DNA from: Psychrobacter sp. JCM 18900 | GTDB taxonomy: Bacteria; Pseudomonadota; Gammaproteobacteria; Pseudomonadales; Moraxellaceae | DNA: 64,000 bases | Reading direction: 5' to 3' | Assembly (NCBI RefSeq): GCF_904846625.1 | Contig: NZ_CAJHBL010000002.1 | Location: 1 to 64,000, forward strand | Made by a program: the position numbers and the translations under genes | Part shown: positions 33,878 to 51,274 of the stretch, piece after piece | Layout of the letters: every line of letters starts with the position of its first letter | How positions within the stretch are numbered: position 1 is the stretch's first letter | The notes under the pieces: generated by a model | Database searches by the model: none | Told to the model about the DNA's origin: nothing | Seen by the model: the letters and a program-made list of their open reading frames with translations, nothing else

Positions 33878-33958
33878 TAAATTTAATTTAACTTGATTTT
33901 ATAAGCTATTAGATACTTTTACCGCAATTTGAATTTTGCTGAAATTGGATGAAACCCT

Positions 33959-34735: not shown

Positions 34736-34753
34736 TATCAATTAGGACGTACT

Positions 34754-35350
34754 ATGACTGATTCCCTATCGTTAACCTCAGAAGGTCTTGACCAACTGTT
34801 TGGTAAGGCCAGATCCTTTAATGCTTGGCAAAAAAAAGACGTGCCAGATGCACTACTTGAAGAGATCTATCATTTAGTTAAAATGGCACCTACCTCGGCC
34901 AACTGTTCACCGGCACGGTTTGTATTTCTCAAATCTGATGACGCTAAAGCGAAATTAGAGCCAGCACTGTCAACAGGTAATATCGAAAAAACAATGACAG
35001 CACCTATCACAGTGATTGTCGCTTATGACAATGAGTTTTATGAGCAACTTCCCAAATTATTCCCACATACGGATGCCAGATCATGGTTTAACTCTAGCCC
35101 TGAGCTCATAAAAGAGACGGCGTTTAGAAACAGCTCTATGCAAGCCGCTTATCTAATCTTGGCTTGTAGAGCATTGGGTTTAGACACGGGCCCTATGTCT
35201 GGATTTAATAATGAATTAGTGGACGACACCTTTCTTAAAGATAGCAAATGGACCTCAAATCTACTCATTAATATAGGGTATGGCCAAGAGGATCAATTGT
35301 ACAGCCGCCTCCCAAGATTGGACTTTGATGAGGCTTGTCAGCTCTTATAA
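34754..35350 (+). CDS. rutE: Malonic semialdehyde reductase RutE (nitroreductase family)
   Basis: 198 residues, near the E. coli length (196). The nitroreductase-fold FMN-binding features are [40 protein letters not shown], and [19 protein letters not shown] with [11 protein letters not shown]. RutE reduces malonic semialdehyde to 3-hydroxypropionate. It is the last gene of the cluster, 18 bp after rutD. A strong hairpin about 150 bp further on is the likely end of the transcript. Confidence 0.93.
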
Positions 35351-35497
35351 AAACAAGCGATTCATCTATGTGAAAGGGTAGCTGCTTTCGACTGGGTTAT
35401 TAAGTGAACCATAATGACGTTTAATAACCATTTTTGGTTAAAGATCTCTAAAAATAAAGGTTTTCCGCTACAGCCTTTATACTATAGGCACTAAGAA

Positions 35498-35521
35498 AGC
35501 CCCAATCTTGAGATTGGGGCT
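35498..35521 (+). terminator. Strong hairpin after rutE
   Basis: A 10-bp perfect stem with a TTGA loop lies 148 bp after the rutE stop. The following GTTTAAATT is only weakly T-rich on this strand. It is the terminator hairpin of the repeated tRNA-Val block. Confidence 0.55.
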
Positions 35522-35530
35522 GTTTAAATT

Positions 35531-35582
35531 TGGCAAACATAATATGACTCGAACCAACGATCTCTATCATGTTTGAGTAGGT
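35531..35582 (-). pseudogene. Degenerate 3' half of tRNA-Val(GAC)
   Basis: 52 nt that align with the remnant at 49389-49440. ATCGTTGGTTCGAGTC keeps the T arm, and the anticodon-stem region ACTCAAACATGATAGA is mutated (loop CAAACAT instead of TTGACAT). It cannot encode a functional tRNA. Confidence 0.65.
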
Positions 35583-35778
35583 TGACCAAGCAACGTATTA
35601 TTACACTCTCTTATAGATATTTCTTGTATCAGCCTATGGCTATCTGAGCTATGCTACATATATTTCTCTATATATGACTATATAGTAGGCTAAGCGAAAC
35701 TGACATGTATCCAAGTTATAGAGGACTGGTTATATTAAAATATAAACAAACTTCCGAGATTCAAGGTTTTTATATTTC

Positions 35779-36198
35779 TTACTCTACAGCGTTAGCTGAT
35801 AAGAAAAGAGATTTTGATAAAGCCGAGAAAAAATCTTGATATATTTTGGGATTTTCAATTGGTTTCAAGTTGTATTGCGCGTTTGCTCTAACAATTACAG
35901 ATTTTCCAGAACTAGAAGGTCTTGCAGTAACAGTCATTCTAACTTTATTACCGCTGACTAGTCTGGTAGCTGAAACTGTACCAAGATCTGTATCAGCTTT
36001 ATCAATGACAAAACTCAAATCTTGTAAGGTTGATATTACATTTCTAACTACTATAGTTTTATCACTAGTATCAAAAGCTCGCGTTTGCATACTGCGTAGC
36101 TCTACTTGATTGTCAGCGCCCAAAATTCTAGCATCATGTGTTGCACAACCTGTAATAGCGAGGAAGGCAGCGAAAAAAGTTATTTTTAATGATTTCAT
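35779..36198 (-). CDS. Small lipoprotein, paralogue of its upstream neighbour
   Basis: 139 residues. A signal peptide ends in the lipobox AITGCA (Cys18). The mature part has no recognised family. It shares the pattern MQ.R.F(D/E)T.D...(V/L)...V...LQD(L/M).(F/Y).ID with the gene upstream, and both end with FFS.LSKS(L/V)FL..A. The start overlaps the upstream stop by four bases (ATGA), so translation is coupled. It is the last gene of a three-lipoprotein operon. Function unknown. Confidence 0.85.
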   Translation of the reverse strand: MKSLKITFFAAFLAITGCATHDARILGADNQVELRSMQTRAFDTSDKTIVVRNVISTLQDLSFVIDKADTDLGTVSATRLVSGNKVRMTVTARPSSSGKSVIVRANAQYNLKPIENPKIYQDFFSALSKSLFLSANAVE

Positions 36199-36725
36199 AT
36201 TTCTTGAGCCTCTAAAAATACTGATTTAGATAATTTACTGAAGAATTCAACATATAGCTCTTCTGTCTTCATGGTTTCGGCTTTGGTTACTTGTCCTTGA
36301 GTATTTGTCACAATGCGCTGAAAAGTAGCTCTAGCTAAATAACCTTCATTGTTGAGCTTAGAAGGTAGTGTGACGAAACTAACTTTAATTTGCTGCTCGC
36401 TATCAACTGACATATTGCCACCACCAAGGACGGCTAATAGTACCGCGCCTGCTATCTGCGCGTTATTAGTGGCACTTACAGTCTTAGACGCTGTAATAAC
36501 ACCTGATTTTGTTTCGGTTTCGTCTATCGAATATCCCATATCTTGTAATACAGCGACTCCAGCTGAAAGAAGTGAGATCTCATCTTTTGTTTCAAAGAAT
36601 CTAGACTGCATTTGTCGTTCTTGTAGAGAGGTCTCAGAAGCTTGAAATAAGTTTTCTGGTGCAGTTGTCGCGCAACCAGTCATTGCTAAAGTACAAGCGA
36701 CAAAGATATATTTCATTTTTTTCAT
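36195..36725 (-). CDS. Lipoprotein, paralogue of its downstream neighbour
   Basis: About 176 residues from the ATG at 36725 (AGGG 9 bp upstream); the frame extends to 36761, inside the preceding gene. The lipobox is AMTGCA. The middle holds MQSRFFETKDEISLLSAGVA and VLQDMGYSIDETETKSG, then a hydrophobic glycine-rich insert (IAGAVLLAVLGGGN) absent from the shorter paralogue, then VEFFSKLSKSVFLEA. The insert could be a membrane-touching loop. It starts 10 bp after the BamE-like gene and overlaps the next by four bases. Confidence 0.85.
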   Translation of the reverse strand: MKKMKYIFVACTLAMTGCATTAPENLFQASETSLQERQMQSRFFETKDEISLLSAGVAVLQDMGYSIDETETKSGVITASKTVSATNNAQIAGAVLLAVLGGGNMSVDSEQQIKVSFVTLPSKLNNEGYLARATFQRIVTNTQGQVTKAETMKTEELYVEFFSKLSKSVFLEAQEI

Positions 36726-36735
36726 TAGTTTGACC

Positions 36736-37131
36736 CTAGAACTTTGATGAATGATAGGCAAAGTCTCTTACCAAGTTTTGTTCATCAAATTTTATTATTA
36801 TAGTAAGTGTTCTCTGTGAGGTAGATGACGCACCTGAACTAGATTGACCACCAGCTAGAACAGCAAATACCCAACCTGTACTTGATGACTGAACTCTATC
36901 TGTAGCTACTTTATCGTAAACCCAGACCTCTCTTCTTTGATCATCTGTAGAGACCATATTCGGTGATCCAAGTGCTTGTAATACATCTGCACCACTCATG
37001 CCTACTTTGATTTGTTTTTGAACAACGCCCACAGATATATTTGAGTTGCTTTGAACTTGTTCAGCATGATGTGCTGCTGAAACACAGCCACCAAGTGATA
37101 AAGCGGCTATTAAAATAAATATAGCTTTCAT
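36736..37131 (-). CDS. SmpA/OmlA (BamE-like) domain lipoprotein
   Basis: 131 residues. The lipobox is LSLGGCV (Cys16). The mature part has the BamE-like pattern KVGMSGADVLQALGSPNMVS, then REVWVYDKV, and ends with LTIIIKFDEQNLVRDFAYHS, as in SmpA/OmlA and related small outer-membrane lipoproteins. A glycine/serine-rich loop (AGGQSSSGASS) is inserted. It is not the housekeeping BamE, which is normally encoded alone near fur or recN. It is the first gene of the operon, behind a perfect 17-bp palindrome. AAAAAGGAA lies upstream of the start. Confidence 0.85.
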   Translation of the reverse strand: MKAIFILIAALSLGGCVSAAHHAEQVQSNSNISVGVVQKQIKVGMSGADVLQALGSPNMVSTDDQRREVWVYDKVATDRVQSSSTGWVFAVLAGGQSSSGASSTSQRTLTIIIKFDEQNLVRDFAYHSSKF

Positions 37132-37166
37132 CTTATTTCCTTTTTAATAGAGTGATATGCACAGTA

Positions 37167-37207
37167 TAAGTTAGGTGTGAAAACATTATATTTTCACACC
37201 TAACTTA
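37167..37207 (-). promoter_or_regulatory. Perfect 17-bp palindrome before the lipoprotein operon
   Basis: TAAGTTAGGTGTGAAAA (37167-37183) and its exact complement (37191-37207) flank a 7-nt loop. On the minus strand the centre reads TATAATG, so a -10-like TATAAT sits in the loop, about 55 bp upstream of the BamE-like start. There is no T-run for termination. It could be an operator over the promoter or a 5' UTR hairpin. Confidence 0.6.
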
Positions 37208-37432
37208 GATAGACACAATGTAACGGTTTAGTTAACAAATGTAAATAAAAAACTATAAAATACAAGGCTTTTGTTCTTTATTTACATTCATACTTTTATA
37301 TGATTTAAGAAAATAAACTTAAAGAAATCTTTTATTTATTTTGATATTCACGTGAATAGTAGACTTACCTATAATGGCAAAGGGAGTGCCAACTAAGTAT
37401 TCAATATTATTGGTGATACAAGTGTCGCTATA

Positions 37433-37864
37433 TTACAAACTCGAAAGCAGAACGCTTGTTTCGCTATTCAAAATGCCATCAATTTCTCTGACTTGACGCA
37501 GCACTTCATCAAATTCTCTCAAGCTTGTCGTGTGTATCTCTCCTACCAAATCCCAGGCCCCGTTGGTCGTATGCAGCTTAATCAATTGCGGAATACCCCG
37601 CAGTTTCCTAATCACTTGTGAAGTAGACTTTCCTGTTACTTCAATCATCATCATCGCTTTGACCGTTTCTTTATCTAGTGCCTCATGCACTCGAATCGTA
37701 AATCCTAAAATAGCACCGTTGTGAATCAGTCTATCCAATCTGTTTTGGATAGTGGCACGAGAGACTTTGAGTTTTTTAGCAAGGTTTGAGATGGTTGCTC
37801 GACCATCTTGTCGAAGTTCAGATATCAGTTCGCTATCTAAAGAATCATAAATGTAATACGCCAT
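37433..37864 (-). CDS. Lrp/AsnC-family regulator
   Basis: About 143 residues from the ATG at 37864, with AAGGAAG 7 bp upstream; an upstream in-frame ATG at 37909 lacks a site. The N-terminal winged helix (LISELRQDGRATISNLAKKL, KVSRATIQNRLDRL) and C-terminal RAM domain (MMMIEVTGKSTSQVIRKLRG, HTTNGAWDLVGEIHT) are standard. It is divergent from ornithine cyclodeaminase, with an inverted repeat between them, and so is probably the arginine- or ornithine-responsive switch for the module. Confidence 0.9.
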   Translation of the reverse strand: MAYYIYDSLDSELISELRQDGRATISNLAKKLKVSRATIQNRLDRLIHNGAILGFTIRVHEALDKETVKAMMMIEVTGKSTSQVIRKLRGIPQLIKLHTTNGAWDLVGEIHTTSLREFDEVLRQVREIDGILNSETSVLLSSL

Positions 37865-37957
37865 AAAAATGCTTCCTTCACTAGATTTTGACATTATGCT
37901 AAGTAGCACCTAACAATGTGTCAAAAAAACGTCCATATTTGGTAAATTATTGACATT

Positions 37958-38000
37958 TTAACTGACAATTATAATTGGTAGCATATTAATTGTCGGTTAA
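37958..38000. promoter_or_regulatory. Inverted repeat, candidate Lrp-type operator
   Basis: TTAACTGACAATTA (37958-37971) and TAATTGTCGGTTAA (37987-38000) are 14-bp arms with one mismatch and a 15-bp spacer. A possible promoter, CTGACA-N16-TATTAA, lies inside it, reading toward the ornithine cyclodeaminase gene. Confidence 0.6.
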
Positions 38001-38032
38001 ATAAATAATATTCATGGAAGGGAGCAAAATTA

Positions 38033-39127
38033 ATGTCTAAATTTATCGTATCACAGAAGCAGGGTGTGCCATTTGTTAGCGTACAGGCGATGGCTGAAAT
38101 TATTAGTAATTATGGTATAGAACAGACCATAAAAGAATTGGTAGATGCTTTAGAACAAGATTTTTCTCGTTGGGATAGTTTTGAAAAATCCAGTCGTTTT
38201 GCTTCTCATTCCAAAGACGGTGTCATAGAGTTGATGCCTGTCAGCGATGGTGAAATGTTTGCGTGCAAATATGTCAATGGTCATCCGATCAACACCAAGC
38301 GTGATTTGCAGACGGTAGCCGCTTTTGGCTTATTGTCTGATGTCGATACAGGCTATCCCATTCTGCTGACAGAAATGTGTATTTTAACCGCCTTACGTAC
38401 TGCGGCGACTTCTGCATTGGTTGCCAAACATTGTGCGCCCAAAAACGCCCAGACTTTAGCGCTTATCGGTAATGGTGCTCAGGGTGAGTTCCAAGCAATG
38501 GGTATGAAAGCAGTCGTGGGTATCTCAAAAGTGCGTTTATATGATGTCGATTCAGCCGCGTCTGAAAAAGTAGCGCATAACCTTGCCGATTCAGGCCTAG
38601 AGATTACTATCTGCAAAACGGTAGAAGAAGCAGTTGAAGGTGCAGATATCATCACTACCTGTACCGCAGATAAGAAAAATGCCACGATTCTTCGTGATGA
38701 TATGGTCAAAAAAGGTGTCTACATCAATGCCATCGGTGGTGACTGTCCTGGAAAAACGGAGCTGGATGCCAACATCTTGTTAAGAGCCGATCATGTGATT
38801 GTGGAATTTGAACCGCAAACCCGTATTGAAGGCGACATTCAACAGCTCTCTCAAGATTTCCCTGTGACAGAGTTTCACCGCATCGTAAATGGTGAAAAAG
38901 CAGTACGCACCAATGAAGATAACTTGGTTGTATTTGATGGTGTTGGTTTTGCCTCAGAAGACTTTACGGCTTTGGTATTTTTGCGTGATTTGATCAAAAA
39001 GCAGGATGCATATGAGCTGCTTGACTTGATTCCTCAGCAACAAGACCCTAAAAACCTCTATTCGGTAGTCAAAGCTCATAGCAAAGATCGTAGCCTAGAG
39101 ACGGATGAAGCGATGGCCGCATCATAA
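38033..39127 (+). CDS. ocd: Ornithine cyclodeaminase
   Basis: 364 residues. The mu-crystallin/OCD family features are MCILTALRTAATSALVAKH, the NAD-binding LALIGNGAQGEFQAMGMKA, ITTCTADKKNATIL and INAIGGDCPGKTELDANIL. Family enzymes convert L-ornithine to L-proline and ammonia with bound NAD+. The length is close to Pseudomonas OCD (about 350). It is the first gene of the module, 30 bp before arginase, which makes the ornithine. GGAG lies about 10 bp upstream of the start. Confidence 0.92.
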   Translation: MSKFIVSQKQGVPFVSVQAMAEIISNYGIEQTIKELVDALEQDFSRWDSFEKSSRFASHSKDGVIELMPVSDGEMFACKYVNGHPINTKRDLQTVAAFGLLSDVDTGYPILLTEMCILTALRTAATSALVAKHCAPKNAQTLALIGNGAQGEFQAMGMKAVVGISKVRLYDVDSAASEKVAHNLADSGLEITICKTVEEAVEGADIITTCTADKKNATILRDDMVKKGVYINAIGGDCPGKTELDANILLRADHVIVEFEPQTRIEGDIQQLSQDFPVTEFHRIVNGEKAVRTNEDNLVVFDGVGFASEDFTALVFLRDLIKKQDAYELLDLIPQQQDPKNLYSVVKAHSKDRSLETDEAMAAS

Positions 39128-39157
39128 GTAGTTTGAATATAGAAAAATAGGAGTTCA

Positions 39158-40174
39158 ATGCCAGTTTTGGACTCAAATGATGAAAAAATTGTTTTATTTA
39201 ATAGAGACAAAATAATGAATGATTTAATGAAAAACGTGCGAATAGTAGAAGTTTATTCAGACGTCGCAGGGCATAAAAAAGGCGCGTCATTAGGAATCGA
39301 TGCATTGCGCGCATCATCAAAAGAAATGAACGCAGACTATTATGAAAAATTGCAACTTGATAGTATAAAAAATGAATATATACATGAAGAAGAGTCGCCA
39401 TTTAAGCATGCAAAATACGCTGATGTAATTGAACCTGTTATTTCTAAATTGGCGCATAAAATCAAAGATATAAGAAATGAGAATCAATTTCCGATTGTTA
39501 TCGCAGGTGATCATTCTAGCTGCGCAGGCACCATGCATGGCCTAAAAATGGCACATCCTGATGCTGAAATCGGCGTGGTTTATATAGATGCTCACGCTGA
39601 TTTTCATTCACCATATACCAGTGGGTCAGGAAATATGCATGGCATGCCTTTGGCGATGGCTTGTGCCATTGATAATTTGGAATGTCAGCGTAACGAGCTT
39701 TCTGAAAAAGAAAAAGAGTATTGGGAAAAGTTGAAGTTTATGGCATCGAACGAGCCATCAATTAAGCCAGAAAACGTGGTTTTTTGTGCGGTTAGAGATT
39801 ATCAAGAAGAAGAAATGGATTTAATTAGAAGACATAAAATCCCTTTATATAGTGTGGCTGAGATAACCCAAAAAGGTATCAGTTCTACCGTAGAGGAAAT
39901 CTTCAAAAAACTAGAATATTGCGACCATATTTATGTGTCGTTTGATGTTGATAGTGTCGATCCTTTATATGTGCCAGGAACCGGTACGCCTGCAATGAAT
40001 GGCCTATCATACGAACAAGCGATGCAACTTAACATAGAGTTAATTAAGAATAAGAAAGTATGCTGCTGGGAGATGGCAGAAATAAATCCTTTGTATAACA
40101 ACTCAAAAGATGACTCGACCAGAATATTTAAAATTTTGGAGAAAGTGACCCACACACTTTTGAGCAATTACTAG
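39158..40174 (+). CDS. Arginase (ureohydrolase family)
   Basis: 338 residues, about 30 more than typical arginases, mostly at the N-terminus. The Mn-binding motifs are IVIAGDHSSCAGTMHGLKMA, VVYIDAHADFHSP and YVSFDVDSVDP, all with the expected His and Asp ligands. TAGGAG just before the start supports the long form. Known activity is arginine to ornithine plus urea; the neighbouring OCD favours arginase over agmatinase. No urease genes are in the window. The nucleotide sequence is AT-richer than that of ocd, so the two genes may have different histories. Confidence 0.9.
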   Translation: MPVLDSNDEKIVLFNRDKIMNDLMKNVRIVEVYSDVAGHKKGASLGIDALRASSKEMNADYYEKLQLDSIKNEYIHEEESPFKHAKYADVIEPVISKLAHKIKDIRNENQFPIVIAGDHSSCAGTMHGLKMAHPDAEIGVVYIDAHADFHSPYTSGSGNMHGMPLAMACAIDNLECQRNELSEKEKEYWEKLKFMASNEPSIKPENVVFCAVRDYQEEEMDLIRRHKIPLYSVAEITQKGISSTVEEIFKKLEYCDHIYVSFDVDSVDPLYVPGTGTPAMNGLSYEQAMQLNIELIKNKKVCCWEMAEINPLYNNSKDDSTRIFKILEKVTHTLLSNY

Positions 40175-40270
40175 TACTGAATATTTAAAATGAGTAAAAG
40201 AATCTAGCCTAAAGGGGTTTGTTAAAACCTTCTTTAGGTTGGTTAAAAAGGGACTGCGAGTAAAAATAAT

Positions 40271-41674
40271 ATGGACATTATTAAAGCCAGCGCTGCAAGT
40301 CGAGATGTTAGCGGTATCAATATCAGACAATTTTTAAAGTTCTTTATCCCATCTATCATAGGTTTGATGCTTTTCGTATTTCCAATTCCTTATGTTGACG
40401 GTAAGTTTGTCACCTATGCAGAAGGATTTACCATTCCTATATCTGTATTGAAGGATTATATACAGGGTTATATCGGTGACCTTTTACCGTTATTGGTTGT
40501 CACCTCAATCATGATTACCTTGTGTTGCACCTTATATACTAAAATCATGAAACCTGCATTTATTCTGAAGAATGCGTTTCTAAATAATTTATTAAACGTT
40601 ACAACGCCTTGGCTTGTTATTAGGATGCTTGGTGCGTTCTTTGTTGTCGTGACCTATTTTAAATTTGGGTTTGAGTCAATATATTCAGACAATATTGGCG
40701 GCTTAATATTATATGAGTTAATGCCTATACTTTTTATCGTATTTTTCTTGGCTGGATTGCTGCTACCGTTATTGCTTGATTTTGGCTTATTAGAATTCTT
40801 TGGGGTTCTACTAAGCAAAGTAATGAGACCTTTATTTGGTTTACCAGGTAGGTCATCTGTAGATTGTTTAACGTCATGGTTGGGCGATGGCACTATCGGT
40901 GTGTTATTAACCGATAAACAATTGGAAGGTGGGTTCTATACCAAAAAAGAAGCGGCAATTATTGCTACAAGTTTTTCAGCAGTGTCGATTACATTCTGTT
41001 TGGTTGTCATTTCTCAGGTTAAGCTCGAAAGCTACTTTATCAATATGATTGGCGTCGTTGCTTTATGCGGAATTGTTTGTGCGCTAATAGTTCCAAGGTT
41101 ATTGCCTTTATCTAGAATTGAAGATACTTATACTATCGAAAACAGTGATAGAGATCATGAAACCATTCCCGAAGGAAAAACGTTATTCACCCACAGTTTG
41201 CATAAAGCTGTCCAAAAAGCAGATAAGAGTCCAAGCTTTCTTACTTTTTTAAGAGATGGTCTAAAAAATATTTTGGATATGTGGATTGGGATATTGCCTG
41301 TCGTTATGGCAATCGGCACGATGGGTCTAATCGTTGCAGAAGAAACACCTGTATTTGATTATCTAGGTATGCCGTTTATTCCATTCTTAGAGTTATTGAA
41401 TATACCGTTTGCCGCAGAAATGTCAAAAACGATCATGGTAGGTTTCGCAGATATGTTCTTGCCGGCTATTATCGGTTCTTCAATAGAGTCAGAACTAACT
41501 CGATTTGTTATCGCTTGCTTGTCAGTGTCTCAATTGATCTATATGTCAGAAGTCGGCGGATTGATTTTAGGGACAAAAATCCCAGTAAGCTTTTTTCAAT
41601 TATTGATAATCTTTCTACTAAGAACAATCATCTCGTTACCAATCATTGCGGTATGTGCTCACATGATTTTTTAA
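40271..41674 (+). CDS. YjiH-family membrane protein with nucleoside-recognition (gate) domain
   Basis: 467 residues and about ten hydrophobic segments. The two gate-like halves carry LPGRSSVDCLTSWLGDGTIG and FADMFLPAIIGSSIESELTR, the pattern of YjiH and of the nucleoside-recognition/SpmA-B domain. The cytoplasmic loop in the middle is charged (about residues 290-330). Substrate is unknown for the family; the position right after ornithine cyclodeaminase and arginase suggests arginine or ornithine import, or export of a product. Only a weak ribosome site is seen, 96 bp after arginase. Confidence 0.82.
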   Translation: MDIIKASAASRDVSGINIRQFLKFFIPSIIGLMLFVFPIPYVDGKFVTYAEGFTIPISVLKDYIQGYIGDLLPLLVVTSIMITLCCTLYTKIMKPAFILKNAFLNNLLNVTTPWLVIRMLGAFFVVVTYFKFGFESIYSDNIGGLILYELMPILFIVFFLAGLLLPLLLDFGLLEFFGVLLSKVMRPLFGLPGRSSVDCLTSWLGDGTIGVLLTDKQLEGGFYTKKEAAIIATSFSAVSITFCLVVISQVKLESYFINMIGVVALCGIVCALIVPRLLPLSRIEDTYTIENSDRDHETIPEGKTLFTHSLHKAVQKADKSPSFLTFLRDGLKNILDMWIGILPVVMAIGTMGLIVAEETPVFDYLGMPFIPFLELLNIPFAAEMSKTIMVGFADMFLPAIIGSSIESELTRFVIACLSVSQLIYMSEVGGLILGTKIPVSFFQLLIIFLLRTIISLPIIAVCAHMIF

Positions 41675-41708
41675 ATAGAGCTTTCTAAAAGCTAGCTGCA
41701 CCACGTCT

Positions 41709-41737
41709 AAAAAAACCACCTTAATAGGTGGTTTTTT
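41709..41737 (+). terminator. Rho-independent terminator after the arginine module
   Basis: AAAAAACCACCT-TAAT-AGGTGGTTTTTT, a 12-bp perfect stem with a T-run, 35 bp after the stop. Confidence 0.88.
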
Positions 41738-41873
41738 GCTATCAGTCTCAAGCTATAGTTGAATTCACATGATTTCAATACAAGGAAATCGAGGTTGAGC
41801 GATACGTTATTTCTTGCAACCATACAAAAATAGATATACGATTCATATACGTTTCGTATATCAAGGTATTTTT

Positions 41874-42080
41874 ATGGGTATTGTGAAAATTGATGATGAA
41901 CTGCATGAAGATATTCGTAAAGCAAGTGCAGTCATGGTGCGCTCCATCAACGCACAAGCTGAATATTGGATGAAGATAGGCATGCTCGCTGAAGCCAACC
42001 CGAATATGTCTTACAACCAGATTATCAATGAGCAAATGAGACAGGCTGATGTCAATATAAGGAACCTTATAGATGGATAA
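41874..42080 (+). CDS. ParD-like antitoxin-family protein
   Basis: 68 residues from the ATG at 41874, which has AAGG 7 bp upstream; a frame from 41814 is possible. GIVKIDDELHEDIRKASAVM, VRSINAQAEYWMKIGMLAEA and NPNMSYNQII match the ParD-like family (ribbon-helix-helix type). No ParE or other toxin follows. Instead the stop overlaps the start of a methionine aminopeptidase gene by 8 bp, so the two are translated together. It may be a regulator of that gene. I have seen this pairing annotated in other genomes, but its role is not established. Confidence 0.82.
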   Translation: MGIVKIDDELHEDIRKASAVMVRSINAQAEYWMKIGMLAEANPNMSYNQIINEQMRQADVNIRNLIDG

Positions 42081-42846
42081 GGTCATACTTAAAAATGCAG
42101 CAGAATTGGAAATCATGCGCGAGTCTGGCCGACTTCTAGCCTCTGTCTTTGATTATCTAGATGAGAAAATTACAGTTGGTACTTCTACGATGGACATCAA
42201 TAACCTTGCTGAGCACTATATCGTCAATCAGTTAGGTGCACGTCCAGCCAGTAAAGGTCAGTATGGTTACCAATATGCATTGAATACCTCAGTGAATAAC
42301 GTGGTCTGTCATGGCATTCCTTCAGAGCAGCAAATACTCAAATCAGGTGATATTGTGAATGTAGATATTACCCTAGAACAAGGGGGTTTTATCGCTGATT
42401 CTAGCAAAATGTATTTGATAGGTGAGGTGGCACCACTTGCAAAACGCTTGGTTGATCAGACCTATGAAGCCATGTGGGGAGGAATACGAGTGGTGAAACC
42501 TGGAGCAACGCTAGGTGATGTTGGTCATGCCATCCAAAGTTACGCTGAGCAGCAGGGCTATTCAGTAGTGCGAGAATATTGCGGTCATGGTATTGGACGC
42601 GAGATGCATGAGGGACCGCAAGTTTTGCATTACGGATATCAAGGAAAAGGTCTAGTCCTACAAGAAGGTATGACATTTACCATTGAACCGATGGTCAATC
42701 AAGGTAAAGCCAAAGTTAAAGTCAAAAGAGATGGCTGGACTGTAATCACCAATGATAAAAAGCTATCTGCTCAGTGGGAGCATACGATTGCGGTTACTTC
42801 TGACGGCTATGAGGTTCTCACTCTGCGTAACGATGAGCTTATTTAA
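42073..42846 (+). CDS. map: Type I methionine aminopeptidase
   Basis: 257 residues, no N-terminal extension. The metal ligands are visible: NVDITLEQGGFIADSSKMY (Asp region), GHGIGREMHEGPQVLHYG (His) and FTIEPMVNQG (Glu), with WEHTIAVT (Glu) near the end. In one respect it differs from housekeeping Map: the second metal-ligand Asp region reads GGFIADSSKMY, where the usual pattern is DG(Y/W)HGDTS. It lies behind a ParD-like gene, not next to rpsB, so it is probably a second, accessory aminopeptidase. Confidence 0.92.
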   Translation: MDKVILKNAAELEIMRESGRLLASVFDYLDEKITVGTSTMDINNLAEHYIVNQLGARPASKGQYGYQYALNTSVNNVVCHGIPSEQQILKSGDIVNVDITLEQGGFIADSSKMYLIGEVAPLAKRLVDQTYEAMWGGIRVVKPGATLGDVGHAIQSYAEQQGYSVVREYCGHGIGREMHEGPQVLHYGYQGKGLVLQEGMTFTIEPMVNQGKAKVKVKRDGWTVITNDKKLSAQWEHTIAVTSDGYEVLTLRNDELI

Positions 42847-42875
42847 GCGATTTAATATTCGAACGACGATTCGGT

Positions 42876-42908
42876 AAGGCGTTTCTGTAATTCAGAAGCG
42901 CCTTTTTT
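42876..42908 (+). terminator. Terminator after map
   Basis: AAGGCGTTTCTG and CAGAAGCGCCTT pair (one G-T) around a TAATT loop and are followed by six T, 30 bp after the stop. Confidence 0.88.
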
Positions 42909-43005
42909 AGAGCTTCCTGTGACCGTTATTTAGCCAGTTATGGCTGAGAAGAAAGTGACTGACATCAAGAGTAGAAGACTATTTGATACATATAAATATA
43001 CCTAG

Positions 43006-44664
43006 CTAGAGAACTGCTTTGGTCGCGCCAGCTGCCCGTTCGATCAATAAATCTACAGGAGCATCAGGACTTAATGTACCAAAGGCTAGCCCATGCTCAT
43101 TCCCAATCCTAGAACGACAGAATGCCTGAGCGATCTCCGTATGTTCAGTCTGTAGTAATATCGAAGCCTGTAGCATCAATGCTAGGCGCTCAATCACATA
43201 GCGACTACGGAACTCCAAGGTTTGAGTGTCCTCAAATCGCTCTATCAGCAGGTGTAATTCTGCATCATAATCAGCACTTTTTCCTGCTGCCTGCTGCAGT
43301 TCCTTAAATAAAGCTCGCTGAGTTTCTGGCTCCTTTTTTAAGGCACGTAGCACATCTAGACACTGCACATTGCCGCTGCCTTCCCAGATTGAGTTTAGCG
43401 GCGCTTGCCTGTACAAACGCGGCATAATAGTCTCTTCGACATAGCCATTACCGCCCAAACATTCTTGTGCCTCATTGATAAAAATGGGGGCGCGTTTGCA
43501 TATCCAATACTTTCCAATTGCTGTCGCGATACGAGCGAGCGCGGCTTCATGAGGGTCTGTTTCTATCCTATCAACAGCGCGTGCAATACGCATTGTTAGG
43601 GCCAAAGCCGCTTCTGACTCTAAGGCTAAGTCTGCCAGCACATTACGCATAATAGGTTGGTTGACTAATAATTTACCAAAGGCTTCGCGCTGGCTGGTGT
43701 GATGAATCGCTTGAACGATCGCTTGGCGCATTTGAGCTGAGGAGCCAATCATACAATCAAGTCGGGTTAGCGCGACCATCTCGATAATGGTAGGAATACC
43801 GCGACCTTCAATGCCCACTAGCTCACCGAATGCACCTTGAAACTCTACCTCGGAGGAAGCGTTTGCCCAATCTCCTAATTTATCTTTTAAGCGTTGAACT
43901 TGTACGGCATTGCGTGTCCCATCAGGCCGAAAGCGTGGTACTAAAAAGCAACTAGGACCACTGTCAGATTGGGCCAAGACGAGATGAGCATCACACATTG
44001 GCGCTGAGAAAAACCATTTATGCCCAACGATTTCATACGAGCCATCTTCTTGTCGTGTGGCTCGAGTCGTATTGCGACGTAAGTCTGATCCACCTTGTTT
44101 TTCTGTCATGCCCATGCCCATCGTACAGCCTAGCTTTTCTTCCATGGGCAAGCTGCGCGGATCATAGTGTTCAGATGATAGCTTGGGCAGCCATTTTTCA
44201 GCCAGTGCTGGCGAATGACGTAGGGCAGGGATAGCGGCATAGCTCATAGACATGGGACAACCAAACCCAGCCTCAGGCTGTGAGCCGAGATACATGACTG
44301 CCGCCCGAGCCACGTGAGCACTATCACGCTCTTCGTTGCGCCAAGCAAAATTGCTCATGCCGTATTTCATTCCTGCTCGCATCAGGTCATGGTAAGCCGG
44401 ATGAAACTCTACTTCATTTATACGCCGACCATAGCTATCAAAGTTGCGTAATTTAGGCTTGTTTTCATTGGCTAAGAATCCGCTGCTGATCAGCTCTCCA
44501 CCAGTCAGTGCGCCAAACTCTTTCAAGTGACTTTCTGCCCAAGCAGCACCCTCTCGTGCGACAGCTTCTTTGAGCGCCGTATCTGTTTCCCATGCATTAT
44601 AATTGGCTAAGGTAAAAGGTTGATTCTGCACCTCATGGGTCTTAAATTGATTTACAATTGACAT
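43006..44664 (-). CDS. aidB: AidB-like acyl-CoA dehydrogenase
   Basis: 552 residues, close to E. coli AidB (541) and longer than ordinary acyl-CoA dehydrogenases (about 380). Features are LGCTMGMGMTEKQGGSDLRR (flavin-binding region), HKWFFSAPMCDAHLVLAQ, the MMP-like GNGYVEETIMPRLYRQAPLN, and the extra C-terminal domain found in AidB, which in E. coli carries basic DNA-binding residues. AidB belongs to the alkylation-stress response; its in vivo reaction is uncertain. No ada or alkB is nearby. The divergent PaaX-like regulator gene shares the promoter gap of about 107 bp. Confidence 0.88.
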   Translation of the reverse strand: MSIVNQFKTHEVQNQPFTLANYNAWETDTALKEAVAREGAAWAESHLKEFGALTGGELISSGFLANENKPKLRNFDSYGRRINEVEFHPAYHDLMRAGMKYGMSNFAWRNEERDSAHVARAAVMYLGSQPEAGFGCPMSMSYAAIPALRHSPALAEKWLPKLSSEHYDPRSLPMEEKLGCTMGMGMTEKQGGSDLRRNTTRATRQEDGSYEIVGHKWFFSAPMCDAHLVLAQSDSGPSCFLVPRFRPDGTRNAVQVQRLKDKLGDWANASSEVEFQGAFGELVGIEGRGIPTIIEMVALTRLDCMIGSSAQMRQAIVQAIHHTSQREAFGKLLVNQPIMRNVLADLALESEAALALTMRIARAVDRIETDPHEAALARIATAIGKYWICKRAPIFINEAQECLGGNGYVEETIMPRLYRQAPLNSIWEGSGNVQCLDVLRALKKEPETQRALFKELQQAAGKSADYDAELHLLIERFEDTQTLEFRSRYVIERLALMLQASILLQTEHTEIAQAFCRSRIGNEHGLAFGTLSPDAPVDLLIERAAGATKAVL

Positions 44665-44771
44665 GATAATTGTCTTCCCTGATTTTGAATGTCATTCCCT
44701 AAGTTTCAGTAGTTCAGCAACTTACATGATCAGTATTACATATAAAAAATAATTCCGTCAATAGGTGTAAT

Positions 44772-45575
44772 ATGAACAAACCAACGCCTCGTTTATTGCT
44801 TTTACGCTTACTTATGGTGGCAGAAGCAAACACACTTAGTGCCTCCGAAGCGGTGCTGGCAGGCTCTATCTTTGGTATGACAGAAAACAGTATACGTGTG
44901 ACGTTGGCTCGTTTGATCCAAGTGGATCTTGCTGAGTCGATTGGTCCTGCCACCTACAAACTTGGACCAAAAGCTCAAAAGTTGGGCGCTGATGTGGCCT
45001 TATGGCAGACAGCGGATAAAAGAACGATAAAATCCGATGGCTCATGGATAGCGGTAGCTACAGGTGGACTACCCCGCAGTGATCGTAAAGCGCTGCGTGC
45101 CCGTGCTCGCGCTTTGTCATTATTGGGGTTTCGTGAACTTGATAAGGGGCTTTATCTGCGTCCCAATAATTTATTAGGCGGTATTGATGTCGTCCGCAAG
45201 CGTCTATTGGACTTGGGCTTAGAAGAGGAAGCTGCAGTTTTTAAAGCCAATGACTTTGATGAGGTTAGGCAGAAAAAAGCACGAGCACTTTGGTCAGACA
45301 TGCATCTTGAAAATCATTATAACGAGAAGTCGCAGCAGCTCACCGACTGGTTAAGTGGTTTGGACGACTTACCGTCCCATGTGGCGCTGCGAGAAATATT
45401 CGTCCTTGGAGATGCAGGTATTCGTAGTGTTGTTTTTGACCCTCTGCTTCCTGCTCCCCTAGTAGATGAGGACGCACGGCAAAAGTATTTTGAGACGGTG
45501 CGACGTATTAATGAGGAGGGTAGGCGCTTATGGTTTGCCTTTTTTGAAGAGGCTAAATCGTTAGAATCCGTTTAA
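44772..45575 (+). CDS. PaaX-family transcriptional regulator
   Basis: 267 residues. The N-terminal winged-helix segment contains SASEAVLAGSIFGMTENSIRV and TLARLIQVDLAESI, the PaaX-type DNA-binding pattern. The C-terminal part (LPSHVALREIFVLGDAGIRS) matches the PaaX C-terminal domain. Known PaaX represses phenylacetate genes and responds to phenylacetyl-CoA. No paa genes are here; the divergent aidB-like gene is its likely target, suggesting an acyl-CoA or aryl-CoA ligand. Confidence 0.86.
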   Translation: MNKPTPRLLLLRLLMVAEANTLSASEAVLAGSIFGMTENSIRVTLARLIQVDLAESIGPATYKLGPKAQKLGADVALWQTADKRTIKSDGSWIAVATGGLPRSDRKALRARARALSLLGFRELDKGLYLRPNNLLGGIDVVRKRLLDLGLEEEAAVFKANDFDEVRQKKARALWSDMHLENHYNEKSQQLTDWLSGLDDLPSHVALREIFVLGDAGIRSVVFDPLLPAPLVDEDARQKYFETVRRINEEGRRLWFAFFEEAKSLESV

Positions 45576-45699
45576 CCAAGTCATTAGAATGCGCTTAAAC
45601 AGAATAAAGTGAAATGGTGGCACAGTAATTAACAAGCAGCAGAGGCGTTATATATAGCGATGAATAAGCATTAGTTATTTGCACCTATTCAGATAGTAT

Positions 45700-46131
45700 T
45701 TAATGTGAGCCATATGGCGAATTTTCATGACAAGAATGATCAGCAAGTGCATTCAATATGCCACATGACTTCGCTGGTGCGCTACTGACACATTTCTGCC
45801 GCAAAACACTTAAGTGTTTTTTTAACTGTTTTAGCTCTTCTATACGTGTTTCCACAGCGCGGATATGTTCATCCAACAAGGTATCGACATCAGCGCAATC
45901 TCTGCTAGGTTCTGCCCAGTACTTAAGTAAAGTCCGTACTTCATCCAACGTCATATCTAGTGTACGACAGTGCAGAACGAACTGTAGACGCTCGATATGA
46001 CTTTCGCGATATAAGCGATAATTCCCTTCACTACGCGCAGGCTCTGGTAATAGCTTTTCTTTTTCATAATAGCGAATGGTTTCTACTGTAGCGCCTGTAC
46101 GCTTAGCGAGCTCTCCAATTTTTATTAGCAT
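45700..46131 (-). CDS. cadR: MerR-family metal regulator CadR-like
   Basis: 143 residues. The MerR helix-turn-helix is MLIKIGELAKRTGATVETIR, and the dimer helix follows from about residue 75. The metal site is built as in CadR/PbrR: Cys in RQKCVSSAPAKSCGILNALA and a His-containing tail (CHENSPYGSH). It is divergent from the P-type ATPase gene, whose promoter has a long spacer typical for MerR activation. Cd(II), Pb(II) or Zn(II) are the likely ligands. Confidence 0.93.
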   Translation of the reverse strand: MLIKIGELAKRTGATVETIRYYEKEKLLPEPARSEGNYRLYRESHIERLQFVLHCRTLDMTLDEVRTLLKYWAEPSRDCADVDTLLDEHIRAVETRIEELKQLKKHLSVLRQKCVSSAPAKSCGILNALADHSCHENSPYGSH

Positions 46132-46155
46132 GGTTATCTCAAAGTCATTTCAAAA

Positions 46156-46187
46156 CTGAAATCATTAAAGTAACTATAAGGTTTAAC
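46156..46187 (+). promoter_or_regulatory. Candidate MerR-type promoter of cadA
   Basis: A -35-like CTGAAA (46156-46161) and -10-like TTTAAC (46182-46187) are separated by 20 bp, longer than the usual 17 and typical of MerR-activated promoters. An imperfect dyad centred on AAAGTAACTATAAGG fills the spacer. Each hexamer matches the consensus at 4 of 6 positions. Confidence 0.5.
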
Positions 46188-46297
46188 CCTAAGGAAATCA
46201 AGTTTATACAATTGCATATAAATGGCCTTGACCCTGAAGCCACTAGAGGGTTCACAATAGCGTTATCAAATGAATTCTTATAATGAGGCAGTTTATT

Positions 46298-48490
46298 ATG
46301 CAATATCGTATTGAAGGTATGGACTGTGCCAGTTGCGTCAGAAAAATCGAAACTGCATTAGCACGTATGCCTGGCGTCTCTGACATACAGCTTAATTTTG
46401 CGACTGAAAAGTTAGAGCTATCGCTTGCCCCTAATTCAGATACTCAGTGCAGCGATATTGAAAAGACCATCAAGCGTCTGGGTTTTGGCATATCTGCCAC
46501 TACTGATCAAGCAAACGCAGCAGACAGCATTAGTGATAATCAATTGAAGACGCAGCAACAGTATTGGTGGCAAACTAGAAAAGGTAAGCAAGTCGTTAGT
46601 CTCGGTATCTTGATGAGTGTCGCCTACGCGTTGGCACTAGTTTTTCCTGATTATGGCATGTGGGCATTTGCTATTGCTGTCATTGTGGGTGTTTTCCCCT
46701 TCACTCGAAAATCTATGACCTTGGCAATGACAGGCACCCCGTTTTCAATTGAAATGCTGATGTCTATCGCGGCAATTGGTGCGCTTGTCATTGGTGAGGC
46801 TGAAGAGGCGGCGGCGGTTGTCTTTTTGTTCTCTGTCGGTGAATTGTTAGAAGGTGTGGCAGCAGATCGTGCCCGTGCTGGTATCAGGGCATTGGCATCA
46901 TTGGTGCCAAAGAATGCGATTTTGCTTGATGCACAAGGCGGACAGCGTGACGTTCTTGCAGCTTCGTTGCAGATCGATGATCTGGTATTGGTACGTCCTG
47001 GCGATAAAGTATCTGCTGATGGTGTCATTGTTCAAGGTAGCTCTAGTCTTGATGACTCACCTGTCACTGGCGAATCCATACCCGTTGCTAAAGACATGGG
47101 CGATGCAGTATTTGCAGGATCAATCAATATGGATGGGGCGCTGCAAATCCGTGTACAAAAGACAGCTGCTGACAACACTATTGCACGCATTATCAATTTG
47201 GTAGAGCAAGCGCAAACCTCTAAAGCCCCTACGGCTCGTTTCATTGAAAAATTTAGTCGTTATTACACCCCAGCGGTGATGGCTATCGCTGCACTGGTTA
47301 TTATTGTTCCGCCGCTAACGATGGGAGGTGAATGGTCGACTTGGTTATATCGTGGTTTTGCACTATTGCTAATCGCCTGTCCTTGCGCGCTTGTACTATC
47401 TACTCCGGCTGCCATTGCATCAGGATTGGCTGTCGGTACACGCCGCGGTTTACTTATCAAAGGGGGCAGCGCTTTAGAAACCATTGGTCGCGTGAATGTC
47501 GTGGCTTTTGATAAGACGGGTACATTAACTGAAGGTAAGCCACAGGTAACCGATGTGATCGCCTTTACACAGAAGCAATCAGTACAAGAGCATATAGGGC
47601 CTGAAGGTCAGAATGAGATACTAGCGCTGTTTGCCAGTGTTGAGTCTGCTTCTAGTCATCCACTGGCAAAAGCGATTATTGATCATACCAAAGCCGCTAA
47701 TATCTCTATACCGATAACTTCAAATGCCTATGCTACTGCGGGGAAAGCAGTACATGCAACGGTAGCCGGGCGCCCTTTAGCCATTGGATCACCAGTCTAT
47801 GCAACTGAGAAAAGCTTGCTGTCAATTGACCAACAGGCAGACATTGAAGTATTGCAAAAGGAAGGCAAGACGGTCTCCGTTCTGTTCGATGAGCAGAGCT
47901 GCGAAGTGCTTGGGTTGGTTGCGCTACGAGACGAATTGCGAGAGGATGCTCAGGCAGGAGTGGCACAGCTCAAAGCGATGGGTGTGCGCTCTGTGATGCT
48001 TACAGGTGACAACCGTCTGACCGCTCAGGCACTTGCTAGTCACTTAAATATAGAATGGCAAGCTGAGCTATTGCCCGAAGATAAGCTACGTTTGCTCAAT
48101 GAGATGAAGGATAATAGCAAGATAGCGATGATTGGTGATGGTATTAACGATGCGCCAGCATTAGCAACAGCAGACGTAGGTATTGCTATGGGTGGCGGTA
48201 CGGATGTCGCCATCGAGACAGCCGATATCGCGTTATTAAAAAGTCGTGTTACAGACGTTGCTCATCTCATTGCCTTATCGCGTGCAACCATGGCCAACAT
48301 ACATCAAAATGTAATTTTTGCTCTAGGACTAAAGGCCGTGTTTCTAATCACTACTGTACTGGGTATTACTGGGCTATGGATTGCTGTGATAGCGGACACT
48401 GGTGCAACGGTACTAGTGACTCTCAATGCTTTACGCTTGCTAAGGTTCAAAGGAGCTCAACCACTAACAACTTTGTCCAAAGCAAAGTAA
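46298..48490 (+). CDS. cadA: Zn/Cd/Pb-exporting P-type ATPase
   Basis: 730 residues from the ATG at 46298 (GAGG 9 bp upstream); an ATG at 46283 adds five. The N-terminal heavy-metal-binding domain has GMDCASCV (Cys10 and Cys13). Membrane metal site CPC (about 361-363), phosphorylation motif DKTGTLTEGKP (Asp about 405), TGES actuator motif (DSPVTGESIP) and hinge GDGINDAPALA are all intact. The type fits CadA/ZntA (P1B-2) rather than CopA, since the third-last helix region DTGATVLVTLNAL carries the family Asp. Divergent cadR controls it. Confidence 0.94.
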   Translation: MQYRIEGMDCASCVRKIETALARMPGVSDIQLNFATEKLELSLAPNSDTQCSDIEKTIKRLGFGISATTDQANAADSISDNQLKTQQQYWWQTRKGKQVVSLGILMSVAYALALVFPDYGMWAFAIAVIVGVFPFTRKSMTLAMTGTPFSIEMLMSIAAIGALVIGEAEEAAAVVFLFSVGELLEGVAADRARAGIRALASLVPKNAILLDAQGGQRDVLAASLQIDDLVLVRPGDKVSADGVIVQGSSSLDDSPVTGESIPVAKDMGDAVFAGSINMDGALQIRVQKTAADNTIARIINLVEQAQTSKAPTARFIEKFSRYYTPAVMAIAALVIIVPPLTMGGEWSTWLYRGFALLLIACPCALVLSTPAAIASGLAVGTRRGLLIKGGSALETIGRVNVVAFDKTGTLTEGKPQVTDVIAFTQKQSVQEHIGPEGQNEILALFASVESASSHPLAKAIIDHTKAANISIPITSNAYATAGKAVHATVAGRPLAIGSPVYATEKSLLSIDQQADIEVLQKEGKTVSVLFDEQSCEVLGLVALRDELREDAQAGVAQLKAMGVRSVMLTGDNRLTAQALASHLNIEWQAELLPEDKLRLLNEMKDNSKIAMIGDGINDAPALATADVGIAMGGGTDVAIETADIALLKSRVTDVAHLIALSRATMANIHQNVIFALGLKAVFLITTVLGITGLWIAVIADTGATVLVTLNALRLLRFKGAQPLTTLSKAK

Positions 48491-48552
48491 GTATGAAGTT
48501 CTTGTTAAAATGGCGGTTTGATTCTCTATTCTAATGACTAAGAGTGGCATTG

Positions 48553-48981
48553 TTAAGATTTTGGTTTAAAAGGTTTTGAGAATTGTAGAATTAAAAAACC
48601 AACTACTGATAATATAATGGCAATCTCATAGCGACCATAAGCCACCGATATCCCAATGGCGGCTGTATTCCACAATCCAGCCGCAGTAGCAGTGCCCTTT
48701 GCGCCGCTTTCATTTTTAAAGATAGCGCCACCGCCAATAAAACCCATTCCAGTGATTATGCCATACATAATTCTAGCCTCAGCATCGGCGTCTTGATAAA
48801 TGTCCATGCCCACTAGCATAAAAGCACACGAAGCAATTGTTACTAAAGGAAAAGTCCTCAAACCTGCACCATTATCTTCAAGTTCACGATTGAGAGCGAT
48901 TGGTAGTGACAATATGAAAGCAATACCTAATTGAAAGGCATGATACACCAGAACATTTAGACTAAAATCGAAGTTAAACAT
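48553..48981 (-). CDS. MgtC/SapB-family membrane protein
   Basis: 142 residues and four to five hydrophobic segments. The MgtC/SapB signature is FQLGIAFILSLPIALNREL, then GIITGMGFIGGGAIFKN, GTATAAGLWNTAAIGISVAY. It has only the membrane domain, without the C-terminal ACT-like domain of Salmonella MgtC (231 residues), so it belongs to the short SapB-like group. Function in Mg2+ or acid stress is inferred from family. It is convergent with cadA. Confidence 0.9.
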   Translation of the reverse strand: MFNFDFSLNVLVYHAFQLGIAFILSLPIALNRELEDNGAGLRTFPLVTIASCAFMLVGMDIYQDADAEARIMYGIITGMGFIGGGAIFKNESGAKGTATAAGLWNTAAIGISVAYGRYEIAIILSVVGFLILQFSKPFKPKS

Positions 48982-49075
48982 AGTAATAACTCAGAAGATA
49001 TTTAGGGTATGGTTTACTTTAAAAAATATAAGTATAAATAAAGAATAACAGAAATTAGCAAGTCGCAGTGTCTAA

Positions 49076-49171
49076 GATCTAATTGATAAAATTTGTGAAG
49101 CACTAGATATTAGGGCAGGGGATATTTTTGAATATTTAAAAAAGGATAAAGAGAAAAATACTCAGAAATAG
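49076..49171 (+). pseudogene. C-terminal remnant of an XRE-family regulator
   Basis: Reading DLIDKICEALDIRAGDIFEY, then LKKDKEKNTQK and a stop. This is the final part of a Cro/CI-type helix-turn-helix protein (the usual form is LDKICEAL...PGDIFEY). A stop codon lies directly upstream in frame and no 5' part is found. Confidence 0.65.
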
Positions 49172-49320
49172 GTTTTAGCTTACAGTTTAAAGTAGAGGTC
49201 AAAAAGAGGGTTTTAATTTTAATGGTTTTTAAGGGTCGGTCACCATTTGGTCACCGTCACTTTTTTAAATGATTTAAATCTGATTGTATAATCATGACTA
49301 TGAGTCGATGTAGACAAGTA

Positions 49321-49444
49321 TTTTCCGCTACAGCCCATATTTCACGGACAAAAAAAGCCCCAATCTTAAGATTGGGGCTTTTCGAATCTGGTAGGCGTAA
49401 TCGGATTCGAACCAACGACTTCTACCATGTCAAAGTAGGTCGAC
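49321..49444. repeat. Direct repeat copy 2: tRNA-Val 3' half plus terminator
   Basis: A better-preserved copy of the 35461-35584 block. It has the hairpin AGCCCCAATC-TTAA-GATTGGGGCT (49356-49379) with an A-run before it, giving a T-run in the tRNA direction (minus strand). The tRNA 3' half lies at 49389-49440. With copy 1 it brackets 13.7 kb. Confidence 0.8.
49389..49440 (-). pseudogene. 3' half of tRNA-Val(GAC), truncated in the anticodon arm
   Basis: On the minus strand: anticodon stem and loop CTACT-TTGACAT-GGTAG (anticodon GAC), variable AAGTC, T arm GTTGGTTCGAATCCGAT, and acceptor TACGCCTACCA. Homology stops just before the anticodon stem, and no D arm or 5' acceptor strand precedes it. 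This is the typical segment carried at the end of tRNA-integrated elements. Confidence 0.8.
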
Positions 49445-49712
49445 TAAAATACATATTATGACGATATCTTACATACATTGATATAAAAAGGCTTTAGATA
49501 TTATAAGGCTGAATAATTAGAATGTAAATTGTAATAAAATAAAATTTAAATCGTATTTAGGCACTGTATTTTTATAGTACTTTTACCTCTACTCCATTGT
49601 CAGATTAGACCAGAAATATTGAAAATAAGTCATTAAATAACAAGCAAATAGAGTCTTCTGTTGCTCGATATTCAGGGGTAGGTGACAGTAGGCTCAAATT
49701 TTATTAAAGAAT

Positions 49713-50024
49713 TCAGGTTTGGCTTGTATTTAAGTGAGTATCTATCGATGGATACGGGTGGTCCCTTGAATCCCGAACAGCTTTGACAAACAAGTTGTAA
49801 CGCCAACTACTTTTAAGAAAATCGACTAATAAGTCGTGAGTTTCGATATTTTTTTTCGTTGACTTCGATTGTTTTCCCAAACTATCACAACTATCGTTTA
49901 CCCCAATCAACGTTGTGAGAGAAATACGCTGGATAAAATATTCACCATATGGACGATTCGAAAACATTTCTACAAATATCATCGCAACCAACGGCTGTGT
50001 CCTATCCTTAAGATTTCTCGTCAT
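49713..50024 (-). CDS. Hypothetical protein, doubtful
   Basis: A 103-residue reading frame (begins MTRNLKDRTQPL) with no family I recognise, in a region of gene debris. The start lies about 100 bp after the ankyrin remnant on the same strand, so it could be a further decayed piece of the same gene. Confidence 0.25.
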   Translation of the reverse strand: MTRNLKDRTQPLVAMIFVEMFSNRPYGEYFIQRISLTTLIGVNDSCDSLGKQSKSTKKNIETHDLLVDFLKSSWRYNLFVKAVRDSRDHPYPSIDTHLNTSQT

Positions 50025-50119
50025 CCCACCGTGCCATCACACTACTCAAGGTTTGTCGTTACCAGTTAACTAAAGCAGCCGAGCTGGTAACTATTTGAAC
50101 TTTGTACTCGATCTCAGGA

Positions 50120-50353
50120 TTCATGTAAAAACTTAGCCCACCAAGATCGAAATGACAACGTTCCTAAAACTAAGTCATCAATCCGTTGTGTCTGCTATAA
50201 GCTCACTATAGCTATTTTAGCAATATCCTACCAATTTCTATAAATAGCAAAATGAAGTGGAGAGAAACCTATCTCGTTTCTTACGCTAGTGTTGCCTTTT
50301 TTAGAACACAAAAGGTTATTTGTTGTGATTCTTCTTAATAATTTATTAGTCAT
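50120..50353 (-). pseudogene. Ankyrin-repeat protein remnant
   Basis: From an ATG at 50353 the frame reads MTNKLLRRITTNNLLCSKKG, NTSVRNEIGFSPLHFAIYRN and W, then TAG (50228-50230), then DIAKIAIVSL and another stop. GFSPLHFAI is the ankyrin core and DIAK.AI fits its second helix. Two in-frame stops in 50 codons mean it is dead. Confidence 0.55.
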
Positions 50354-50392
50354 AATAAGACTGACAGAAAACATAAGACTAAAGGAATAGAC

Positions 50393-51271: not shown

Positions 51272-51274
51272 GTT

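Follow-up and report, generated by a model that had tools for sequence, protein, structure and literature searches.

An array of tRNA-Val(GAC) 3′-end repeats and metabolic cargo in Psychrobacter, very probably left by successive island insertions

Two known kinds of system come close to the locus described here. For tDNA islands (genomic islands in tRNA genes), it is an established principle that the element integrates in the 3′ half of the tRNA gene and restores the gene with a copy that it carries; Table 1 of the Islander description counts 3919 islands, with 125 tandems of two or more and 4 of three or more (PMC4383910, in the sections available). For cis-mobilizable elements (CIMEs), the accretion scenario is that an element loses its integration genes and a further element then integrates at the att site (PMC5704250, in the sections available). 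We analyzed 64,000 nucleotides of Psychrobacter sp. JCM 18900 (contig NZ_CAJHBL010000002.1, positions 1 to 64,000; hereafter the window), in which a first-pass annotation made from the letters alone had seen two same-orientation blocks containing tRNA-Val 3′ halves bracket a 13.7-kb segment, and had read them as att sites of an integrase that uses tRNA genes. The blocks are very probably attachment-site scars of successive island insertions at the 3′ half of tRNA-Val(GAC), catalyzed by a tyrosine integrase.

The two blocks lie where the annotation had placed them, in identical orientation: copy B at 35461..35580 and copy C at 49321..49438, both on the minus strand. Each contains TTTTCCGCTACAGCC (starting at 35461 and 49321), a terminator hairpin, GCCCCAATCTT.AGATTGGGGC, with identical stems and loops that differ by one base, and, in minus-strand reading, the 3′ portion of tRNA-Val. 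What the copies have in common with the intact tRNA gene is a unit of 119 bp, which starts at the 5′ border of the anticodon stem, runs through the CCA end, and includes the terminator and a TTTTCCGC motif. The repeat edge lies just 5′ of the anticodon stem, the truncation point that had been proposed, and copy C accordingly retains the entire anticodon arm, including GAC. The label tRNA-Val(GAC) thus holds for copy C but not for copy B, in which the triplet at the anticodon position is AAC, decayed from GAC.

ARAGORN found no tRNA in the window, and Rfam at gathering scores gave no match there; the intact tRNA-Val(GAC) gene, for which a genome-wide search had been recommended, was located by ARAGORN at C2:73812-73888 (C2 being the contig of the array), on the minus strand, 24 kb to the right of copy C and beyond the window. 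When the stretch around 49.3 kb was searched against the whole genome (3.28 Mb, 18 contigs), it matched the tRNA copy (C2:73722-73861; 98%, E = 6.0e-63), copy B (35461-35621; 75%, E = 3.3e-23), and a further, partial copy, A (25902..25962, minus strand; 85%, E = 7.8e-12), while the remaining matches were weaker (E of 5.6e-4 and up) and comprised the hairpin or short tRNA pieces only. In total, four copies (A at 25902, B at 35461, C at 49321, and D, the intact gene) lie in one orientation on one contig and cut 48 kb into three segments of 9.5, 13.7, and 24 kb. Identity to D is 97% over 119 positions for C, 78% over 112 bp for B, and 87% over 62 for A, which consists of the terminator part only. 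This similarity is far beyond chance. The identities are consistent with scars being older the greater their distance from the tRNA, with A and B too short and uneven for a strict ranking. Allowing at most one mismatch, TTTTCCGCTACAGCC occurs at 3 places in the 3.28 Mb, every one in the array (reversed control pattern: 1). A dispersed repeat, which the annotation had named as the alternative to an att site, was accordingly rejected for the present genome, where block copies are confined to the array.

To place the array among relatives, 80 Psychrobacter genomes were searched with the block and the right-end flank (G numbers denote individual genomes, G000 being the present one). The block matched in 77 of the 80. 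In at least 22 (G000, G002, G006, G009, G014, G018, G021, G023, G028, G029, G040, G041, G043, G046, G047, G057, G058, G060, G065, G073, G076, and G077), a further block was present on the contig and strand of a match running to the tRNA 5′ end, and among the matches listed the displaced block was on the 3′ side of the tRNA in 22/22; the count is a lower bound, with some genomes having blocks on other contigs. An empty site, which the annotation had suggested looking for, was found in G017, where ppiC is followed by 89 bp, a single block with the intact tRNA, GST, and hemB. In the present array, ppiC (a rotamase gene by Pfam; 25440..25718, minus strand), pirin, and pseudouridine synthase genes lie to the left of copy A, and GST and hemB lie to the right of D. 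In the G017 empty site, the stretch from ppiC to the terminator aligns with copy A, putatively the oldest displaced block, and the outermost block adjoins ppiC in G028, G065, G009, G079, G047, G018, and G060. One genome, G002, has two matches to the tRNA-Val 5′ end (C1:1909241 and C1:2711431), one of them with a displaced block ∼49 kb away.

The array itself contains no integrase by profile scan or tblastn, as had been noticed for the 13.7-kb segment at first reading, and the six integrase-family matches of the present genome are all on other contigs. Among 12 genomes scanned, a Phage_integrase gene lies at most 2 kb from the intact tRNA in 7 (one with internal stops), and none was found within that distance in G000, G028, G060, G018, or G040. 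The integrase of G009 has Arm-DNA-bind_2 and Phage_integrase domains; used as a query, it found no relative in the present genome, though relatives (E up to 1e-60) occur in 39 of 119 Moraxellaceae genomes and 7 of 16 genera. Pattern seeding in 84,980 species genomes yielded 39 integrase loci (L numbers, some recording the same genomes as G numbers), consisting of 34 from Psychrobacter and 5 distant ones (25 to 30%). The intact tRNA-Val(GAC) lies ∼0.8 to 0.95 kb from the integrase start in 30/34 Psychrobacter loci, a count that includes three imperfect genes (L136, broken; L138, truncated; L128, ended by the contig). With this tyrosine integrase at the same tRNA, the empty site, and the confinement of the blocks, the att-site interpretation stands.

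Three of the four exceptions have the block without an intact tRNA in the available stretch: L129 lies where a contig ends, and for L137 and L139 the block is an inner one. The fourth, L130, is cut by the contig. The integrases of L137 and L139 are stumps (residues 1-176 and 6-76), which show a way in which inner islands would lose the gene. Very long open frames (1126 to 1188 aa) that match Phage_integrase were also seen inside five arrays (G065:C35:208815, G009:C1:32449, G047:C23:75177, G014:C13:112729, and G077:C1:2981980).

Where an integrase is present, the right end of the island has a conserved order: integrase, a 71-aa open reading frame (ORF), an XRE gene, 11-bp repeats, and the block. 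Islands with different cargo have this module in common. The 71-aa ORF, putatively Xis-like, has no match in Pfam or PHROGs. An XRE gene end and GGTCACC sequences beside copy C had been proposed as the last traces of a lost element, and both belong to this module. The former is a remnant of the XRE (HTH_26) gene at 49058..49168 (plus strand; 65% by tblastn to the intact XRE, residues 31-67), and the latter are two repeats, at 49238 and 49249 (49238..49255, plus strand), 11 bp apart and at −83 and −72 from the block.

The repeats at integrase loci, typed by eye, are GGTCAC in 11 and GGCACA in 22. Integrase residues 8 and 12 separate the types in 33/33 loci, a full separation achieved by no other of the 398 integrase columns and by 0/67 XRE columns. 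We rejected the repeats as XRE sites, because the XRE class mismatches the repeat type in L119, L120, L121, L129, and L131, while integrase residues 8 and 12 match it in 33/33. The same five loci are natural swaps, in which the XRE class parts from the integrase N-terminus and the repeat type. On an integrase tree of 29 sequences (residues 20 to end; L130, which has no block, and L136 to L139, which are broken or truncated, were left out), repeat type requires 7 changes, at least 4 of them on supported branches. In a tree-based sign test, 4/4 supported pairs agree (P = 0.125, with too few pairs for significance), and the same comparison for XRE gives on average 2.4 that agree and 1.1 that disagree. 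The 11-bp repeats, including those at 49238 and 49249 as proposed type-1 sites, are best read as putative arm sites of the integrase.

A conserved left end is also apparent for the third island, at 49439..49594. This flank to the right of copy C matches 9 of 27 other inner-block flanks over at least 80 bp, and the cargo beyond is mostly different. An AGGCAC motif at 49555-49570, and in the matching left ends of relatives, resembles type-2 repeats, though the right end of the island is of type 1.

These observations suggest that islands of one family would have entered the 3′ half of tRNA-Val(GAC) successively by site-specific recombination. Each newcomer would have restored the tRNA gene with its own tRNA 3′ end and terminator and displaced the earlier 3′ end leftwards, so that three segments of metabolic cargo built up, with the 13.7-kb segment in the middle. 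The enzyme would be the tyrosine integrase with the Arm-DNA-bind_2 domain, proposed to bind the 11-bp repeats beside the block. The integrase, the presumed Xis-like gene, and the XRE gene occur together at the same tRNA in many relatives, and the integrase would have been lost from the present islands. With the gene absent here, the islands can probably no longer move, unless an integrase is supplied from outside.

Several results weigh against successive insertion. No integrase remnant was found in C2:72500-73480 or by tblastn over 22 to 76 kb (E up to 10; best, 1.4), so the link of the array to the integrase rests on shared end sequences, and neither excision nor integration was observed. 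Copies A and B, where segments 1 and 2 begin, are without the conserved left end. The base composition of the array gives no clear island signal or boundary, and in G023 and G003, ppiC is reached without a detectable outermost block.

Alternatively, homologous recombination, acting on the 119-bp blocks or on shared flanks and following DNA uptake, for instance, could have been the main route by which the array gained and exchanged its cargo, with the integrase accounting for the first scars only. An array without an integrase is consistent with this, and other recombination evidently also acts, as the order of cargo pieces differs in G065 and a joint within the 13.7-kb segment has lost its block. 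Furthermore, C and D are near-identical in the block and in the final part of the XRE stretch, and diverged in the upstream part of XRE, a pattern that fits conversion between copies. The block edges, however, are sharp and recurrent, one integrase family is found at the tRNA in 30/34 loci, and inner blocks retain integrase stumps, and we consider homologous recombination unlikely as the main process. Recombination from block to block may have added reshuffling, given the piece order in G065.

Prophages are a far less probable source of the array, even though the integrase is of phage type, is assigned by PHROGs to an integrase family, and is accompanied by an XRE regulator. Of 53 candidate ORFs in the interval from 22.1 to 76.3 kb, 50 were scanned with Pfam and gave 0 matches to phage structural families, phage integrases are all <60% identical (best among the matches listed, ∼31%), and pattern seeding found none in IMG/VR; for the integrase-bearing islands of relatives, annotation covers the first few genes of one island. 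A prophage origin was rejected on the lack of structural genes among the ORFs scanned and of a close phage integrase. If the tRNA gene had been duplicated in tandem and the extra copies had then decayed, with cargo arriving afterwards at random, several partial copies would be expected beside one intact gene, as is the case here. Yet B and C end at the identical point of the tRNA, relatives show these edges again (query 144-262), no copy has a 5′ half, and no duplicated GST/hemB flank was seen in the array. We regard this scenario as scarcely credible. Successive insertion by the tyrosine integrase remains the reading that we favor.

The cargo differs between segments. Segment 1 (A to B; 25963..35460, plus strand; ∼9.5 kb), which has only the partial copy A at its left end, is a rut-type pyrimidine catabolism cluster by Pfam and NCBIfam, in which RutA, RutB, and RutC score above the NCBIfam cut-offs and RutG slightly below its own. 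In G047, G028, G009, and G079, this segment lies between blocks, at 93 to 95% identity, and in G065, G003, and G023, where the stretch also reaches ppiC, the match is a piece of at most 483 bp. A DHBP-synthase-family gene (riboflavin pathway) lies within the cluster at 33146-33877.

The 13.7-kb segment between B and C is bounded by these blocks, as first described; it is not a stand-alone element, being the middle one of three and itself composite. According to Pfam, its left part, 2a (35581..42900), encodes lipoprotein-like ORFs, AsnC, ornithine cyclodeaminase, arginase, a Gate-family membrane protein, and an M24 peptidase, and its right part, 2b (42964..49057), encodes aidB-like and PaaX-like genes, a MerR/heavy-metal ATPase pair, and mgtC. 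From 37.4 kb onward the segment is contiguous in G047 and G028. In G079, 2a (37.4 to 42.9 kb) and 2b are separated by a block and ∼5 kb; they are likewise split in G039, with a block between, and in G023 the aidB-cadA-mgtC half adjoins the tRNA and the arginine half adjoins ppiC. The segment therefore arose by the joining of two units that were once separate. No att block was found at the 2a/2b joint of the present genome, where ∼60 to 75 bp of other sequence stand in place of the block seen in G079 and G039.

Segment 3 (C to D; 24 kb) occupies 49595..64000 in the window and continues to the intact tRNA-Val(GAC) outside it. It contains a dehydrogenase/M20/DUF3100 module, phosphonate-type genes, and additional genes that extend as far as an XRE regulator; its transporter resembles aminoethylphosphonate transporters, at scores below the NCBIfam cut-offs, and is accompanied by DAO and HAD enzymes. 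In G060, the module at 50030-56556 stands as a separate unit, flanked by an inner block and the tRNA, and no integrase was found within that copy. It is 95.1% identical over 6557 bp in G060, compared with 80.3% over 2103 bp for the core flank, which points to passage of the module between species. Comparison with the closest relatives gives ∼91 to 96% identity for the core and the islands alike, a similarity that fits vertical descent among them. Outside the array, three tandem 108-nt repeats at 22140-22463 lie inside a Sel1-repeat gene and are ordinary.

The integrase family extends beyond Psychrobacter. Among the 30 Moraxellaceae loci covered, 6 are at tRNA-Val(GAC) (integrase ≥85%) and 16 are at tRNA-Gly(GCC) (56 to 68%); the remaining 8/30 have a short available stretch without a tRNA. 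Acinetobacter lwoffii pALWED3.4 (NZ_CP032289.1), a deposited circle of 12.4 kb, has at 850-3040 an integrase, a 71-aa ORF, XRE, GGTCACC-type repeats, a terminator, and a tRNA 3′ half that matches the A. baumannii tRNA-Gly(GCC). Module order is the same in pALWED3.4, the Moraxellaceae tRNA-Gly(GCC) loci, and the Psychrobacter loci, and pALWED3.4 also carries metabolic cargo; unlike the Psychrobacter islands, it has an integrase that is 59% identical, uses tRNA-Gly(GCC) rather than tRNA-Val(GAC), and is recorded as a circle. This layout is as expected for an excised island with attP, which pALWED3.4 may be. Alternatively, it may replicate as a plasmid: it also holds an IstB/DnaA-like ATPase and a DUF1376 gene, and PLSDB lists a replicon type. 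A literature search, subscription papers not covered, returned no mention of pALWED3.4.

The locus marks a site at which catabolic and metal-handling genes repeatedly enter Psychrobacter genomes, and with it come a likely enzyme, an att block, proposed arm sites, and, from a sister genus, a probable free circular form. Natural exchanges in which the integrase N-terminus and the arm-repeat type switch jointly provide a ready test system for arm-site recognition. A broader idea, which we hold to be doubtful but conceivable, is that tRNA-Val(GAC) serves as a genus-wide, integron-like store of catabolic modules in Psychrobacter, in which integrase-less islands with att blocks and arm repeats would be stacked, excised, and moved between species by integrases supplied in trans, the repeat type (GGTCAC or GGCACA) setting which integrase moves which island.

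The same literature search found, among the papers listed, none on a Psychrobacter genomic island at tRNA-Val, and what PMC3478194 gives on Psychrobacter, in its available sections, is confined to an island-content figure and a restriction-gene count. Both tDNA-island integration and CIME accretion fit the array. As in the tDNA islands described for Islander (PMC4383910, in the sections available), an intact tRNA lies at one end, a same-orientation 3′ fragment lies on its 3′ side at the other, the island lies between, and the att sequence covers the anticodon arm; in contrast, Islander requires an integrase inside each island and in every member of a tandem, and the present array has none. Island finders with such a requirement would miss arrays of this type. 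As in CIMEs (PMC5704250, in the sections available), elements without integration genes keep both attL and attR, here B and C around the middle segment and C and D around the third, and are stacked at one site. The models for CIMEs differ in being decayed integrative and conjugative or integrative and mobilizable elements: no relaxase or conjugation family was found among the Pfam matches of the 50 scanned ORFs, and the analysis identified neither transfer genes nor a conjugative parent. The array represents a tRNA island hotspot, of a known kind, whose islands have no integrase and show CIME-like accretion.

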